Below, one piece after another: positions 41,981 to 47,915 of a stretch of 49,811 nucleotides of DNA. Under the pieces are notes generated by a model. It did no database searches. It had not been told where the DNA came from and saw only the letters and a program-made list of their open reading frames with translations. This DNA comes from an uncultured Clostridia bacterium. Lineage in GTDB: Bacteria; Bacillota; Clostridia; Christensenellales; CAG-314. The position numbers and the translations under genes are program-made. The stretch spans positions 1 through 49,811 of the forward strand of contig CANQGO010000013.1 in the NCBI GenBank assembly GCA_947623225.1, in the 5' to 3' direction. How positions within the stretch are numbered: position 1 is the first letter of the stretch; every line of letters starts with the position of its first letter.

Positions 41981-42730
41981 TTGGTCAGGCAAGAATACAG
42001 TTGGTTGACGGATACGTACGTGGCGCACCGCGGACTGTTCGACAACGCGGCTCTTCCGGAGAACTCACTGCCCGCATTTGAGAGGGCGGCGAGGGAAGGA
42101 TATGCCATAGAGACGGACGTGCAGATGACCGCCGACGGCGTGCTTGTGGTATTCCACGACGATACTCTCCTGCGCATGACGGGAGCCGAAGGCAAAGTGT
42201 CGGACAGGACGCTGGAGCAGTTGCGGCAGTTGCGGTTGCTGGACACGGACTGCGTGATACCCACCTTCGAAGAGTTTCTGACGGCGGCGGACGGCGTGAA
42301 TATAGTCGTAGAGATCAAGCCGCACGAGCGCGTGGGCGAGGTGGAAGCCAAGACGTACGAGAGGCTGCGCACCTACAAGGGGCACTACTGCGTGGAGTCG
42401 TTTGACCCGCGGGTGATACGCTGGTTCAGAGTGCACGCGCCGGAGGTGATACGCGGACAGCTGTCCTGCTCATTCGAGGGGATGCCGCCGCTGAAGAAGC
42501 GACTGCTCAGAGATCTGAAACTATGCAGGTGGAACGGCAGTCAGTTCATAGCCTATGACGCATCCATAATACGCACAAACAAGGCGGTCAGGCGGTGGGC
42601 GAAGCGCGTACCCATACTGTGCTGGACGATACGTTCGCAGGAGCAGTTGGACGCGCTGGAAGACTGCTTCGACAATATAATATTCGATTCGTTTCTGCCC
42701 GAGCGGCGGGACAAGCAACATACGAGGTAA
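41981..42730 (+). CDS. Glycerophosphodiester phosphodiesterase
   Basis: A 249-aa GDPD TIM-barrel enzyme that cleaves glycerophosphodiesters to glycerol 3-phosphate and an alcohol. The catalytic set is present: H16-R17 in YVAHRGLFDN, ENSLPAFERA, the metal ligands E44 and D46 in AIETDVQMT, and H59 in VVFHDDTL. IVVEIKPHE supplies a further ligand. No signal peptide is seen, so it is probably cytoplasmic. The start is a TTG with GAGG nine bases upstream. It is followed after three bases by the giant repeat protein, sharing its promoter. Confidence 0.92.
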   Translation: MVRQEYSWLTDTYVAHRGLFDNAALPENSLPAFERAAREGYAIETDVQMTADGVLVVFHDDTLLRMTGAEGKVSDRTLEQLRQLRLLDTDCVIPTFEEFLTAADGVNIVVEIKPHERVGEVEAKTYERLRTYKGHYCVESFDPRVIRWFRVHAPEVIRGQLSCSFEGMPPLKKRLLRDLKLCRWNGSQFIAYDASIIRTNKAVRRWAKRVPILCWTIRSQEQLDALEDCFDNIIFDSFLPERRDKQHTR

Positions 42731-42733
42731 ATT

Positions 42734-45700
42734 ATGGGAAGAAGGATCTTGGCATTCTTTTTGGGAATGATATTCGGCATTATATTCCTGGTGGGGTCTC
42801 TTGCCGGAGGGCTTCTCATTATGGCGACGGTCATCAAACCGGCAGATCTGTCCGCCGAGAGCAGCAAGTATCTCGGCGATCTGGCGCAGTTGTCGCTATT
42901 GGATATCTACAAGAGCGTGAGCGAACTCTACCGCAACAAGGTAGGCGTGACTGACGCAGAGGGCAAGTACTACACCTTCGGCGAATTTTGCGAGAACTAT
43001 CACATAAACCCGAACGACCTGTTCGGGGGCAAAGAGGTGCCGCAGGAAGTGCTGGACGTGCCCATATTCGAACTCATCGGCGGAGACAGGGATCAGGCGC
43101 AGAATCAGATACGAGTCAGCGTGATACCTGCCCTGCTGAACATGTTTATGGGCGGCGGCACGGGCGAGGACGGCAGTGCCAATGCCATGTTCCCGGACAG
43201 CGTGTTGGAGAAGCTCTCCGCCTACTCCATCGTGGATCTGAAGGGCGAAGGCGGTATCGCGACGGTATTCTCCGACGTGCGCATAGCGGAAGTGGCTATG
43301 GGCATGCTGCCGCTGGAGCGCACCGACGACAATGCCATGATGTGGGCTGTCGGTCAAGCCAAGTTGGGACCCATACTGGGCGGAATAGACGGCAACGTCT
43401 TGCTGCAATTCCTCGACGGCGGCGCGTTCGACGAGATGGGCAGACTGCCGCTGGTGTCCATGCTGGGCAACAGCAGTCAGATACTCAACGCATTTCTCAA
43501 AAACAAAGCCATCGCGGACATGATAGACGCCGAGGGCAATCTGAACCCCGACACCATCATCAACAGCGTCTATCTCGGCGAGATAGTAGGCTTGCAGCGT
43601 GACGAGTTGTCCGAGGAAGAGACAGAGACATTTTGGGAAACGGGCATATCGAGCGACACGCTCACATTGCTCGAGAATGACGAACAATACGCTCTGCGTA
43701 CCGAGGACGGGACATTCTCCGCCAAGCAGACCTGCAACAGCGAGGAAGAGGACCACGTCCATGACATAAACTGCTTCGGGTTCGTGTGGTACAGCACCAC
43801 CGCCACCGAGGAAGGCGCGGACACCGACCTCGTGCTGGAGGACGGACGCTATCCGCTGGCTACGGGCATATATGCAGCCATAGCCGACGTCACCATCGGC
43901 TCGCTCACGGGCGGCGACAGCAATGCGCTCGTGGACAAACTGATGGACGTACCGCTGAACGAACTGCTGGAGGGACAGGAGATGAGCGGCATATTTGCCA
44001 ACATTTCCGATATGACCATCGGCGAACTCATCAACGGCGGCATAGACAATATGTACCTGGGCGATCTGCTGGGATTCAAGCGCAATGAGATATCCGCTCC
44101 CGAAGGCGACATACTGCCGCTGTACAAGAGCGAACCGCACGAGGACGGAGACAAGCCCGTCAAGTACGTCGTTATGAACGAGGACGGCACGGTAGCGGGA
44201 CTGTCACCCGACGGCAAAGTGTGGTACGAGGGTGAGATCACCTGTGCCAAAGAGGTGCACGAGCACACGGCTGAGTGCGGCGTCGCGGACGAAGAGGGCA
44301 ACTATCCCTGCGGCAAGGAGCAGCACGCGCACGACGTGGCAGGCTGCTACGGCTACGTCTGGTACGAGAAGTGCGAAGAGGCGCACGAACACGAGGGCGA
44401 GTTGGTCATAGATGACGAGCACTACGTACGTGCCGAGGGCATGATGGCGAAGATAAGCGACAAGCAGATATCCGAACTGAGCGATCTGGACGATCTCATC
44501 AAGGAGTTGACTCTCGCCGACGTGCTGGGCAAGGACGTTCCGGACATTCTGAAAGGGCTAAAAGACGTGCCCATCGGCGAACTGAACGACGCCATCAACG
44601 ATCTGTATCTCGGCGAATTGCTCTCCTTCCGCCGCAGACCGCTGAGCGATGACGAGTTGGCTCATTACGACAAAACGGTACAAGACATAGAAGGTAAAGA
44701 TATAGAAGGTATCCTCGCCAAGCAGGACGAGGACGGCAACATTACCGGCAACGCCAAGTTGGACGGCGAGGTATGGTACGAGGCGCAATTCAACTGCATC
44801 GACGACGAGCACAAGCACGACGAGGCTTGCTACGACGGCGAAGGACAGTTGACCTGCACCATCGAGGAGCACGCGCATGACGCTAACTGCTACGGTTACG
44901 TATGGTACGAGAAGTGCGAAGAGGCGCACGAGCACGATGGCGAGTGGCTACCCGTCGAGGACAACGACGAAGGCAACTACTACGTGCCCGCTGGCGGCAT
45001 GATGGGCAAACTCGCCGACGAGCAGGTCAAGAACCTCGGCAAGTTGGACGAGACCGCCAAGAAATTGACGCTTGCCGACGTGCTGGGCGACGACATTCCC
45101 GCCATGCTCAAGTCTCTCAAGGATACGCCCATCGGCAAACTGGACACCGCCATAGACACGCTCTATCTGGGGCAGCTGCTCGAGTATCGCAGAAAGGACA
45201 GTTCCGAGATAGCGGACTTCGAAACCTACACCACCGACGTCGTCACGGACGAAGCGGGCAATGCGCTTGTACGTTCCAACGGCGACGGCAAGTATGTACG
45301 CGCCGACGGCAAAGTATGGTACGAGGCGCAACTGACCTGCACGGACGAGGAGCACACGCACAGCGACGAGTGCTATGACGCGGAAGGCAATATCATCTGC
45401 GGCAAAGAGGAGCACGCGCACGACGAGACCTGCTACGGCTACGTATGGTACAAGAAGTGCGAAGAATCGCACGAGCACGAAGGCGAATGGGTACCCGTCG
45501 AGGACAACCAAGAAGGCGACCGCTATATCGTCGCCGACGGAATGATGGGCAAACTTGCCAACGAGCAGGTGAAGAACCTCGGAAATCTAAACGATACCGT
45601 GCAGACATTCACCCTGCAGGACGTGCTGGGCGACAGCGTTCCGGATATGCTCAAGGGTATCAAGGATACTCAGATCAAGGACCTCAACGACGCTATCAAC

Positions 45701-47854
45701 GGCGTATACCTCGGCGACTTCCTCAGCTACCGCCGCAGACCCGTTGCGGATCCCGAAAGTTATACCGCCCAAGTGTACACCGAGGGCAAAGTGACCGTAC
45801 GCGTGAGCGAGGACGGCTCCGTCGCCATGACGGACGAGGGCAAGGACTGGTACGAAGCGGTACTGACCTGCGACTCCAAGGAAGCCGAACACGAGCACGG
45901 CGTCAGCTGCTACGGCTACGTCTGGTACGAGAAGTGCGAAAACGCCGAAGATGGACACGACCACTCAGGCGAGTGGCAACCCACCGAAGATAACGAAGAA
46001 GGCTTGTACTACGTTCCCACCGAGGGCATGATGGCTAAACTTGCCCGCGAGAAGGTGGGCGACATGGGCAAACTGGACGAGACGGTACAGAAGTTCACAT
46101 TGGAGGACGTGCTGGGCGACAGCGTTCCCGACATGCTCAAGAGTATCAAGGATACGCAGATCAAGGACCTCAACGCCGCCATCAACGGCATGTACCTCGG
46201 AGACTTCTTGCAATATCGCCGCAGACCGCTGGCGGAGTTGACGTGTAACGAACTCGACCACTACTCCACCGACGTTCCCACTACAGGCGACGAGGACGCC
46301 TACGAGGTAAAGACCGACGGCACCGCCGATATCAAGCGGGACGGCGAGCACTGGTACGAGGCGCAACTGACCTGCACGGACACGACGAGCGAGCACGAGC
46401 ACAACACCGCTTGCTACGGTTTCGTATGGTACAAGAAGTGCGAACTTACAGAAGAGCACGACCACTCGGGCGAGTGGCAGCCGACCAAGGACAACAAGGA
46501 CAACGACTACTATGTGATAGCCGACGGCATGATGGGCAAACTTGCCGACGAGAAGGTGGACGACCTCGGCAACCTGAATGACACCATTCAAAAATTCACG
46601 CTGCGCGACGTCATGGGCGAAAATATTCCCAATTCCCTCACTTCTCTCGCCGACGTTCCGCTGAGCGGGCTTGGCTCCGCCATAGACGGCATGTATCTCG
46701 GCGCATTCCTGCAATACGTCAAGAAGCCGGTAAATGTTGCCTACTACACCGATGAGGTAGAGGGCTGCGACGGCAAAGTCAAGACAAACGGCACCGCCTA
46801 CGCCATGCAGGACAGCGACGGCAAGTGGTATGACGCCGCGCTCAACTGCATTGTCGATGATGCTGAGCACACGCATACGCTCGACTGCTACCGCTTCAAT
46901 TGGTATACGCTGGAATGTACGCTCCCCGGCGAACACACCACCGACGACACTCACACGGACGACTGCTATAAGGCGGCGGACAAGTTGATAGGCAGACTGT
47001 CCCGTCTCAAGGTCAACGAACTGACCGGACAGCAGATAATCGACACCGTTAACGACACTCCGCTGGGCGACGTGCTGACGTTGGACAACGCCAACGGCTT
47101 GCTCAAGGAACTTGCCGAGGTCAAGATAGGCGACCTGAGCAGTGAGTTGGACGCCATATACGTCGGTATAGCCATGAACTACAAGCGCAAAGAGATGGCA
47201 GTAAGTAAAGATTCGCTGGGGCTCGTGGTAGCGGACGAGACGGAAAGCCGTGCTCGCAAGGATAAGATATATAAGGACAAGTCCGACCCGAGCAAACTGT
47301 ACTACTACGACACCAAGCACGAGATATTCTACGAAGCGCAACTGTGCTGCCTGCACGAGAGCGAACACGCCGAGGGCGGACACACCTTCAGCTGCTATGG
47401 CTTCGTGTGGTACGAGTGCTCCTACCCTGCTGACACAGAAGGTCACGAACACGGCGTCGACACGGAAGGGGACTCCTACACCTGCAAGATAGTTGTAGGT
47501 CTGAACGGCAAGTTGGCAAACCTGCGCATAGACGAACTCAACGGTACGCACATGTCGGATCTGGCAAAGAGCCTGACTATCAGGGATCTTATGGACAGCG
47601 GTATGTTGGATCTGCAACCAGATAATATTGCATTGCTTTCCATTATGTTCGATAAGGACTGCCCCAAAGGCTGCAGTTTCTCGGACTATCTGATAAACGG
47701 TAAAGGCGATCCTGTAACGTATTGGCAAAACAAGCATGGCAGCGCACCGGACGATGAACATGGTCTGGGATGGGAAAACGAATTGCTTGTCAACTTCATC
47801 AATTCCTTGCTTGGCATGATTAAAAACATTAGTTTCCCCGGGTTCGGCGGCTGA
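42734..47854 (+). CDS. 1706-aa membrane-anchored protein with eight Cys/His modules
   Basis: I do not recognise a named family. The protein has one N-terminal membrane segment (residues 6-34) after a basic start, so about 1,670 residues should lie outside the cell. After a unique region (35-270) come eight modules of 155-186 residues. Each has a helical part ending in a YLG motif (at about 280, 441, 625, 811, 992, 1154, 1321; YVG at 1476), then after a variable linker a cluster of Cys and His: C-x(7-10)-H-x-H-x(2-4)-C, in modules 2-4 doubled by a second CGKEEHAHDETC-like unit, then YGYVWY and KCEE-x-HEHEGE. No LPXTG anchor or second membrane helix is present at the C-terminus. The clusters suggest binding of zinc or another metal. 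GAGG six bases before ATG 42734 sets the start. An external scaffold or metal sponge is inferred, not shown. Confidence 0.75.
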   Translation: MGRRILAFFLGMIFGIIFLVGSLAGGLLIMATVIKPADLSAESSKYLGDLAQLSLLDIYKSVSELYRNKVGVTDAEGKYYTFGEFCENYHINPNDLFGGKEVPQEVLDVPIFELIGGDRDQAQNQIRVSVIPALLNMFMGGGTGEDGSANAMFPDSVLEKLSAYSIVDLKGEGGIATVFSDVRIAEVAMGMLPLERTDDNAMMWAVGQAKLGPILGGIDGNVLLQFLDGGAFDEMGRLPLVSMLGNSSQILNAFLKNKAIADMIDAEGNLNPDTIINSVYLGEIVGLQRDELSEEETETFWETGISSDTLTLLENDEQYALRTEDGTFSAKQTCNSEEEDHVHDINCFGFVWYSTTATEEGADTDLVLEDGRYPLATGIYAAIADVTIGSLTGGDSNALVDKLMDVPLNELLEGQEMSGIFANISDMTIGELINGGIDNMYLGDLLGFKRNEISAPEGDILPLYKSEPHEDGDKPVKYVVMNEDGTVAGLSPDGKVWYEGEITCAKEVHEHTAECGVADEEGNYPCGKEQHAHDVAGCYGYVWYEKCEEAHEHEGELVIDDEHYVRAEGMMAKISDKQISELSDLDDLIKELTLADVLGKDVPDILKGLKDVPIGELNDAINDLYLGELLSFRRRPLSDDELAHYDKTVQDIEGKDIEGILAKQDEDGNITGNAKLDGEVWYEAQFNCIDDEHKHDEACYDGEGQLTCTIEEHAHDANCYGYVWYEKCEEAHEHDGEWLPVEDNDEGNYYVPAGGMMGKLADEQVKNLGKLDETAKKLTLADVLGDDIPAMLKSLKDTPIGKLDTAIDTLYLGQLLEYRRKDSSEIADFETYTTDVVTDEAGNALVRSNGDGKYVRADGKVWYEAQLTCTDEEHTHSDECYDAEGNIICGKEEHAHDETCYGYVWYKKCEESHEHEGEWVPVEDNQEGDRYIVADGMMGKLANEQVKNLGNLNDTVQTFTLQDVLGDSVPDMLKGIKDTQIKDLNDAINGVYLGDFLSYRRRPVADPESYTAQVYTEGKVTVRVSEDGSVAMTDEGKDWYEAVLTCDSKEAEHEHGVSCYGYVWYEKCENAEDGHDHSGEWQPTEDNEEGLYYVPTEGMMAKLAREKVGDMGKLDETVQKFTLEDVLGDSVPDMLKSIKDTQIKDLNAAINGMYLGDFLQYRRRPLAELTCNELDHYSTDVPTTGDEDAYEVKTDGTADIKRDGEHWYEAQLTCTDTTSEHEHNTACYGFVWYKKCELTEEHDHSGEWQPTKDNKDNDYYVIADGMMGKLADEKVDDLGNLNDTIQKFTLRDVMGENIPNSLTSLADVPLSGLGSAIDGMYLGAFLQYVKKPVNVAYYTDEVEGCDGKVKTNGTAYAMQDSDGKWYDAALNCIVDDAEHTHTLDCYRFNWYTLECTLPGEHTTDDTHTDDCYKAADKLIGRLSRLKVNELTGQQIIDTVNDTPLGDVLTLDNANGLLKELAEVKIGDLSSELDAIYVGIAMNYKRKEMAVSKDSLGLVVADETESRARKDKIYKDKSDPSKLYYYDTKHEIFYEAQLCCLHESEHAEGGHTFSCYGFVWYECSYPADTEGHEHGVDTEGDSYTCKIVVGLNGKLANLRIDELNGTHMSDLAKSLTIRDLMDSGMLDLQPDNIALLSIMFDKDCPKGCSFSDYLINGKGDPVTYWQNKHGSAPDDEHGLGWENELLVNFINSLLGMIKNISFPGFGG
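43568..47485 (+). repeat. Eight-module internal repeat of the 1706-aa gene
   Basis: Modules centre on the YLG motif and the Cys/His cluster. Cluster cysteines: 334/347; 504/515/526/538/547; 688/699/708/719/728; 869/880/889/900/909; 1046/1059/1068; 1214/1227/1236; 1372/1385/1395/1411; 1539/1554/1562/1584. The middle copies are the most alike, as expected for expansion by recombination from within. Confidence 0.8.
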
Positions 47855-47886
47855 GCCGTTACAACTTAAAATAACGCAAAAAAAAG

Positions 47887-47915
47887 CGTCTCTCTCACTG
47901 CGAGGGAGACGTTTT
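47887..47915. terminator. Terminator between the giant gene and the FAD gene
   Basis: CGTCTCTCTC-ACTGC-GAGGGAGACG (47887-47911, one G-U pair), with A8 before and T4 after. It can serve both convergent genes. Confidence 0.85.

Follow-up and report, generated by a model that had tools for sequence, protein, structure and literature searches.

An anchored acidic helical protein of gut Clostridia with candidate metal clamps at its hairpin tips

What might a gut bacterium do with a giant protein studded with cysteines and histidines? The gene in question, a single open reading frame of 1,706 codons with an ATG start (42734-47854, plus strand, as are all features of the locus given below), lies on contig CANQGO010000013.1 of an uncultured Clostridia bacterium (assembly GCA_947623225.1). 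The whole stretch analysed, 49,811 nucleotides, is here called the window. The giant gene is the sole match in its own genome (1.48 Mb assembled into 52 contigs, about 92% complete). The stop codon of a glycerophosphodiester phosphodiesterase gene (GDPD; 41981..42730; PF03009, E 2.1e-29) is 3 nt 5' of its ATG, and the two probably share one transcript. Behind the giant gene is a terminator-like stem-loop of 14 pairs (47883..47915), a consensus match only, in a region where eight such sites were found versus 4.7 in shuffles. Elsewhere in the window, ten scanned reading frames on the minus strand (1626-23067) match housekeeping families: FakA, RsgA, RlmN, RsmB, a formyltransferase, a DNA/pantothenate flavoprotein, YicC, DNA ligase, UvrD, and Tyr-tRNA ligase.

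The original prediction, made from the sequence alone, described an external protein with one N-terminal membrane helix, no sortase signal, and eight Cys/His-rich modules. The helix and the missing sortase signal both hold. All 19-residue hydropathy windows above 1.6 begin at residues 1-19, and the maximum beyond residue 61 is 1.24. This anchor (residues 1-37; 42734..42844) contains the GxxxG pattern G11-x3-G15, whose two glycines are invariant in the 17 sequences aligned. The pattern is present in the anchors of all 17 genus proteins that have an N-terminus and, by a stricter definition, of 15 of 18 distant ones. The window protein begins MGRR; with a single N-terminal hydrophobic segment and the positive-inside rule, the remainder of the chain should lie outside. 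That remainder is very acidic (136 Lys or Arg versus 334 Asp or Glu). A pattern scan of the protein finds no LPxTG, and the roughly 92% complete genome yields zero matches to sortase (PF04203). The same genome has two matches to penicillin-binding transpeptidases (PF00905), so a cell wall is likely.

Alignment and an AF2 model of residues 28-475 (mean pLDDT 73.6) delimit a helical N-terminal domain behind the anchor (residues 38-282; 42845..43579). There follows a row of helical units, of which an HMM grown from five finds eight: U1 (378-448; 43865..44077), U2 (569-632; 44438..44629), U3 (755-818; 44996..45187), U4 (936-999; 45539..45730), U5 (1098-1161; 46025..46216), U6 (1265-1328; 46526..46717), U7 (1418-1483; 46985..47182), and U8 (1589-1635; 47498..47638). 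An AF2 module model covers U3 and U4 as well. A C-terminal cap (1636-1706; 47639..47851), in which W1680 and F1688 are invariant among 15 full-length proteins, ends the chain. Pairwise DNA identity is 58-80% between the five best units and as much as 90% between modules over 63 nt at the final WY/HxH portion of the inserts.

The inserts carry short Cys/His knuckles, located by motif scan and, for individual inserts, by the unit HMM, alignment, AF2, or the linker set described below. There is one knuckle each in I1 (283-377; C334; 43580..43864), I5 (1000-1097; C1046; 45731..46024), I6 (1162-1264; C1214; 46217..46525), and I7 (1329-1417; C1372; 46718..46984). There are two in I2 (449-568; C504 and C526; 44078..44437), in I3 (633-754; C688 and C708; 44630..44995), and in I4 (819-935; 45188..45538), where C869-H874-H876-C880 and C889-H894-H896-C900 are accompanied by C909-H913-H915. 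I8 (1484-1588; 47183..47497) holds only a degenerate knuckle, CLHESEHAEGGHTFSC. Because a Cys/His insert precedes each of the eight units, the predicted module count is right. The modules are less uniform than that count implies: U1 is lower-scoring, U7 is lower-scoring or partial, U8 is partial, and the number of knuckles per insert varies.

The protein contains 37 Cys and 16 HxH motifs. Ten knuckles fit C-x(3-6)-H-x-H-x(3-5)-C, whereas 2,000 shuffled versions of the protein average 0.005 and never give more than 1. Structure prediction for a single module, proposed as a check when the protein was first described, gave very high AF2 confidence (pLDDT 94.5, pTM 0.84) that extends to the Cys/His part: ten-residue blocks over the knuckles score 91-97 in a model that includes no metal. 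Both modelled knuckles look alike: the first His is a bridge residue, and the closing Cys ends a helical turn three residues long. A Foldseek search of solved structures with this model gave no match at E 0.001.

Relatives provide the comparative material. By tblastn, the giant protein is matched in 17 of 24 other genomes of the genus; plain tblastn found none in 16 genomes from other families of the order. Some relatives bear isolate names that point to rabbit ('Lapin') and roe deer cecum. One relative's locus belongs to Candidatus Fimimonas merdipullorum, whose genus the naming paper places, under an older GTDB release, in Christensenellales, family CAG-314 (PMC8035907); this single name suggests that the whole order compared here is Christensenellales. 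NCBI taxonomy record 2840822 files Candidatus Fimimonas instead under Myxococcota, which we take to be a misplacement. In the 14 relatives uncut by contig ends, frames run from 871 to 1,869 residues with 5-10 unit hits, some of them weak. Among the tblastn matches, in-match stop codons occur only in three genomes (G008, G017, and G020), in one match each, at the C-terminal end.

Between units scoring above 20 bits we collected 95 linkers from 17 of 19 proteins, the window protein included; this threshold drops weaker units and with them some terminal linkers, and two proteins (L036 and L038) contribute none. Linkers at one place form a series from 16 to 136 residues. At the short end are 11 Cys-free linkers of 16-26 residues, in 5 of the 17 proteins (for example, EKVGDKWLDTNGQEIT). 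Next come seven 24-residue linkers with one knuckle, all in L034 (for example, TLEGGVWYDCDTNHAHGAGCTKVD), and then longer linkers of up to 136 residues, many with two knuckles. Cys is present in 84 of the 95 linkers, and 77 of these 84 contain HxH; among the 11 Cys-free linkers none has HxH and one has any His. The seven linkers of L034 (genome G009) are successive and very similar, which points to tandem expansion.

An alignment of 58 two-unit stretches from 14 proteins shows which residues are kept. The outer columns, represented by C869, H894, H896, and C900, are empty in 10 rows; 44 of the remaining 48 show the full C-H-H-C and four differ at or lack one residue. Conservation of the outer set is 100, 98, 96, and 100%, versus a mean of 49% over 55 other insert columns, among which only two Trp, one Tyr, and C909 reach 90% (W862 stands at 98% and W905 at 100%). 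Within double knuckles, the inner H876 and C880 are conserved at 100%, H874 at 81% (Val or Lys in 4 of 21 rows), and C889 at 82% (Thr in 4 of 22). All eight residues are invariant in a separate alignment of 15 double knuckles, an outcome that is partly built in because the selection pattern demands most of them.

What would these four residues do? Their C2H2 chemistry suggests that each knuckle most likely binds one metal ion, probably Zn2+. Alternatively, the cysteines, which flank each loop, might pair as disulfides that close the hairpin tips, leaving HxH with a structural role or facing solvent. The predicted position outside the membrane suits such bonds, as does the even Cys number in 55 of the 84 Cys-bearing linkers, a count that also weighs against metal. 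The histidines fit disulfides less well: those of the outer set are nearly as conserved as the cysteines, and Cys takes the first His position in 4 of 116 motif matches (a loose pattern, in which some matches span two knuckles), an exchange common in many Zn sites. Moreover, the other 29 linkers have an odd Cys number. The genome, at about 92% completeness, has zero matches to DsbA or VKOR; this is weak evidence, because control genomes often lack them too (DsbA is present in 8 of 14, VKOR in only 3 of 14). On balance, we regard disulfides as rather unlikely. Against the metal clamp, joint absence of the four residues can also come from loss of the whole loop, and the inner set is less strict, as H874 and C889 illustrate. 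In addition, the genome has no match to ZnuA (PF01297), versus 11 of 14 control genomes with one.

The giant gene is optional at an otherwise stable site. Its neighbourhood was tested at 15 of 18 genus loci, omitting three on short contigs (L035-L037). A gene that we take from its sequence to be lepA lies upstream on the opposite strand in all 15, GDPD lies upstream on the same strand in 14, and an FAD gene lies downstream in 13, the remaining two being cut by contig ends. Pfam identifies the GDPD and FAD proteins beside the giant gene; two further neighbours are, by our reading of their sequences, presumably an aldo-keto reductase (akr) and hemW. GDPD was found in six of the seven genus genomes without the giant gene, all but G005. 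In G011 GDPD is at a contig edge. The five other regions were read: in G003, G014, and G018 GDPD adjoins the FAD gene and the giant gene is absent from its usual site (in G003 a 136-residue frame overlaps the gap), in G004 the adjacent genes differ, and in G002 a 428-residue reading frame (L119:6437-7720, plus strand) with an ATPase-like start as judged by eye, TGVRRCGKSYLL, occupies the giant gene's site.

Profiles reach further than tblastn. Within the order, the unit profile finds matches in 28 of the 200 genomes searched, 24 belonging to other genera, and the N-terminal profile in 10 of 151, six belonging to other genera. We read 18 distant loci (L072-L089), drawn from 14 of the 24 unit-profile genomes plus four from the N-terminal profile. 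Their frames span 467-1,526 residues, two of them (L076 and L079) cut by contig ends. Like the window protein, all 18 carry an N-terminal hydrophobic segment, which starts between frame residues 2 and 113, together with helical units matched by the same profile. In 15 proteins this is the only segment above the threshold; a second clear one is present in L072, and one or two marginal windows in L086 and L087. Profile comparison shows that the anchor and N-terminal domain are homologous to those of the eight distant proteins compared (97.8%, E 1e-12, 104 columns, against 0.2% for a control comparison with unrelated anchored proteins). The repeat units are homologous to those of 5 of the 18 (99.7%, E 6.5e-27).

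The Cys/His inserts fall in gaps of that repeat alignment. Distant members keep the helical units but have 0-9 Cys and 0-2 HxH, with other hairpin inserts or none. L079, a contig-cut protein encoded at the same GDPD site in a sister genus of the same family, has short hairpins without Cys. From these knuckle-poor relatives we infer that the anchored helical chain came first, the knuckles being mostly later additions. The original prediction, which defined the protein by its Cys/His clusters, thus gives way to a different picture: the clusters sit in hairpins of an older, order-wide helical family and are mostly missing in its distant members. The addition is not confined to the window's genus: L072 has one knuckle, CANPTPGHLHSIVGC, and L080 has two HxHxxxC half-motifs without the first Cys. 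Four members from another family of the order (L073, L076, L078, and L086) bear quite different inserts, such as YYTLYNPAVHKDSTRYIRV in L073, so the site between units seems to accept lineage-specific hairpins.

The GDPD, lepA, and FAD neighbourhood was seen only in the genus and at one sister-genus locus; 17 of the 18 distant loci show no match to the GDPD neighbourhood. Neighbours were considered as a guide to function and set aside, as those of 11 of the 18 distant loci share no common theme. Pfam assigns chosen ones to an ABC transporter, CvpA (Colicin_V), poly-A polymerase (two loci), RmuC, and PolA, and finds nothing in two further neighbouring frames.

No convincing member was found outside the order by a profile search of 299 genomes of the phylum. 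Four of these genomes, all from one genus, gave hits outside the own genome at E about 1e-4, which we judge to be chance; two of the four loci (L124 and L125) hold reading frames of 330-344 residues that are not family-like. Some of the weakest order-level hits may be chance too. Searches of Pfam, NCBIfam, and PDB gave no convincing match of the window protein to a characterised family, and NCBIfam and Pfam at its cut-off found no family in nine distant members. The protein thus belongs to a family unnamed in the libraries searched. Nor is the protein or its motif named in any title or opening of an abstract among the papers listed, from a collection with little subscription literature and few preprints.

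The knuckle itself has a wider distribution. Its profile has matches in 12 of the 291 class genomes searched; one of these is the own genome, where all seven matches fall within the giant gene. The other 11 genomes contribute 18 loci (L091-L101 and L103-L109), about 15 distinct reading frames with at least two knuckles each. Judged by eye, the knuckles come soon behind an N-terminal hydrophobic segment in 14 of the 15; the exception, L103, starts at a contig edge. Pfam, applied to eight of these frames as cut by the locus, finds a BspA-type LRR in L092, Big_8 just over the cut-off in L093, CHAP below the cut-off in L099, and none in five. Comparison of the window's knuckle profile with these clostridial surface proteins confirms a shared module (96.9%, E 1.4e-10): the knuckle is not an invention of the giant protein, and the original statement that CxxEEHxHTDxCY-like repeats occur in some Firmicutes surface proteins was sound. 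The arrangement differs. The clostridial EHxH proteins share the C-x4-H-x-H-x3-C knuckle, but carry it as a short tandem near the N-terminus, with no helical units in the parts read, whereas the window protein has its first knuckle at residue 334 and the rest between units. Phage and plasmid origins were considered and rejected: searches of phage records gave no match to the whole protein or to L072 among the distant members, and no plasmid matches the knuckle. One unannotated phage record from human faeces (MT835974.1:8403-8510) does contain a double-knuckle-like stretch (55.6% identity, E 7e-6).

These observations suggest a model, which we hold with about even confidence: an order-wide, anchored, acidic helical rod whose hairpin tips are clamped by Cys2His2 metal, probably Zn2+, and which serves as a spacer or in contact. 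One N-terminal helix would hold the protein in the membrane, and the helical domain and the row of 64-residue units would project from it as a stiff and very acidic rod that stands within the wall or passes through it. Beta-hairpins would sit at the unit boundaries. In the window's genus many of these would be enlarged, their tips closed by Cys2His2 knuckles, sometimes two per insert. Metal would there replace the disulfide or isopeptide bonds that stiffen exposed loops of other surface proteins, and the decorated hairpins may present contact surfaces to the wall, polymers, or other cells. The model retains part of the predicted string of metal-binding or disulfide-locked beads: units and clusters do alternate, and a metal clamp is probable. 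The clusters are optional, and the proposed uses in metal storage and adhesion are speculative.

Could the aromatic residues matter more than the metal? The hairpins (WY...WY) might bind the wall or a glycan, like choline- or wall-binding repeats, with the units as mere spacers. The strict conservation of W862 and W905 is in keeping with this, and L072 supplies two suggestive matches: hairpin 941-960 to the Pfam PSA endolysin wall-binding domain (22.8 of the 27 bits required) and residues 929-962 to a PHROG endolysin (E 4.4e-6, 27.2 bits). Both are short and the Pfam match is below cut-off; moreover, the seven Pfam families listed for the window protein up to an E of 10 include no wall-binding one. 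We think this reading unlikely.

A store or buffer, in which the knuckles would hold metal for its own sake, an idea put forward for His-rich surface zinc proteins, is less probable still. Ten possible sites per chain and a genome without a ZnuA match would accord with storage. C2H2 knuckles, however, normally hold metal for structure, the immediate neighbours (GDPD, the FAD protein, lepA, the aldo-keto reductase, and HemW) are not metal genes, and the sites are mostly missing in distant homologues. Nor does the protein resemble the pneumococcal polyhistidine triad proteins, outside proteins with repeated His-rich sites of the form HxxHxH: a pattern scan finds no such triad in it, and Cys is part of each of its sites. 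Finally, neutral drift, with the inserts as repeat expansions without function, could explain the missing gene in three relatives and the variable linker length, but is very improbable given outer residues fixed at 96-100% against a 49% average elsewhere in the insert, and stops confined to one C-terminal match in each of three genomes.

The clamped rod invites comparison with sortase-anchored repeat adhesins, which are also long surface chains of repeats, with an isopeptide or disulfide cross-link in each. The window protein differs in having no LPxTG, in a genome without a sortase match, and in a cross-link that is probably metal. A broader proposal, more tentative than the model itself, is that a mobile extracytoplasmic Cys2His2 zinc knuckle exists in clostridial anaerobes and replaces disulfide and isopeptide bonds. 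It would have been planted behind the anchors of unrelated surface proteins and, in the window's genus, repeatedly in the hairpins of the giant rod, whose fold would be one not yet solved, in an organism with no detected sortase, DsbA, or VKOR.

The helical family, without a name in the libraries searched, occurs in gut Clostridia with small genomes. Strict anaerobes must stiffen their exposed proteins although disulfides do not form easily. Should the knuckles hold zinc, they would represent another way of locking surface loops, one common to unrelated clostridial surface proteins.
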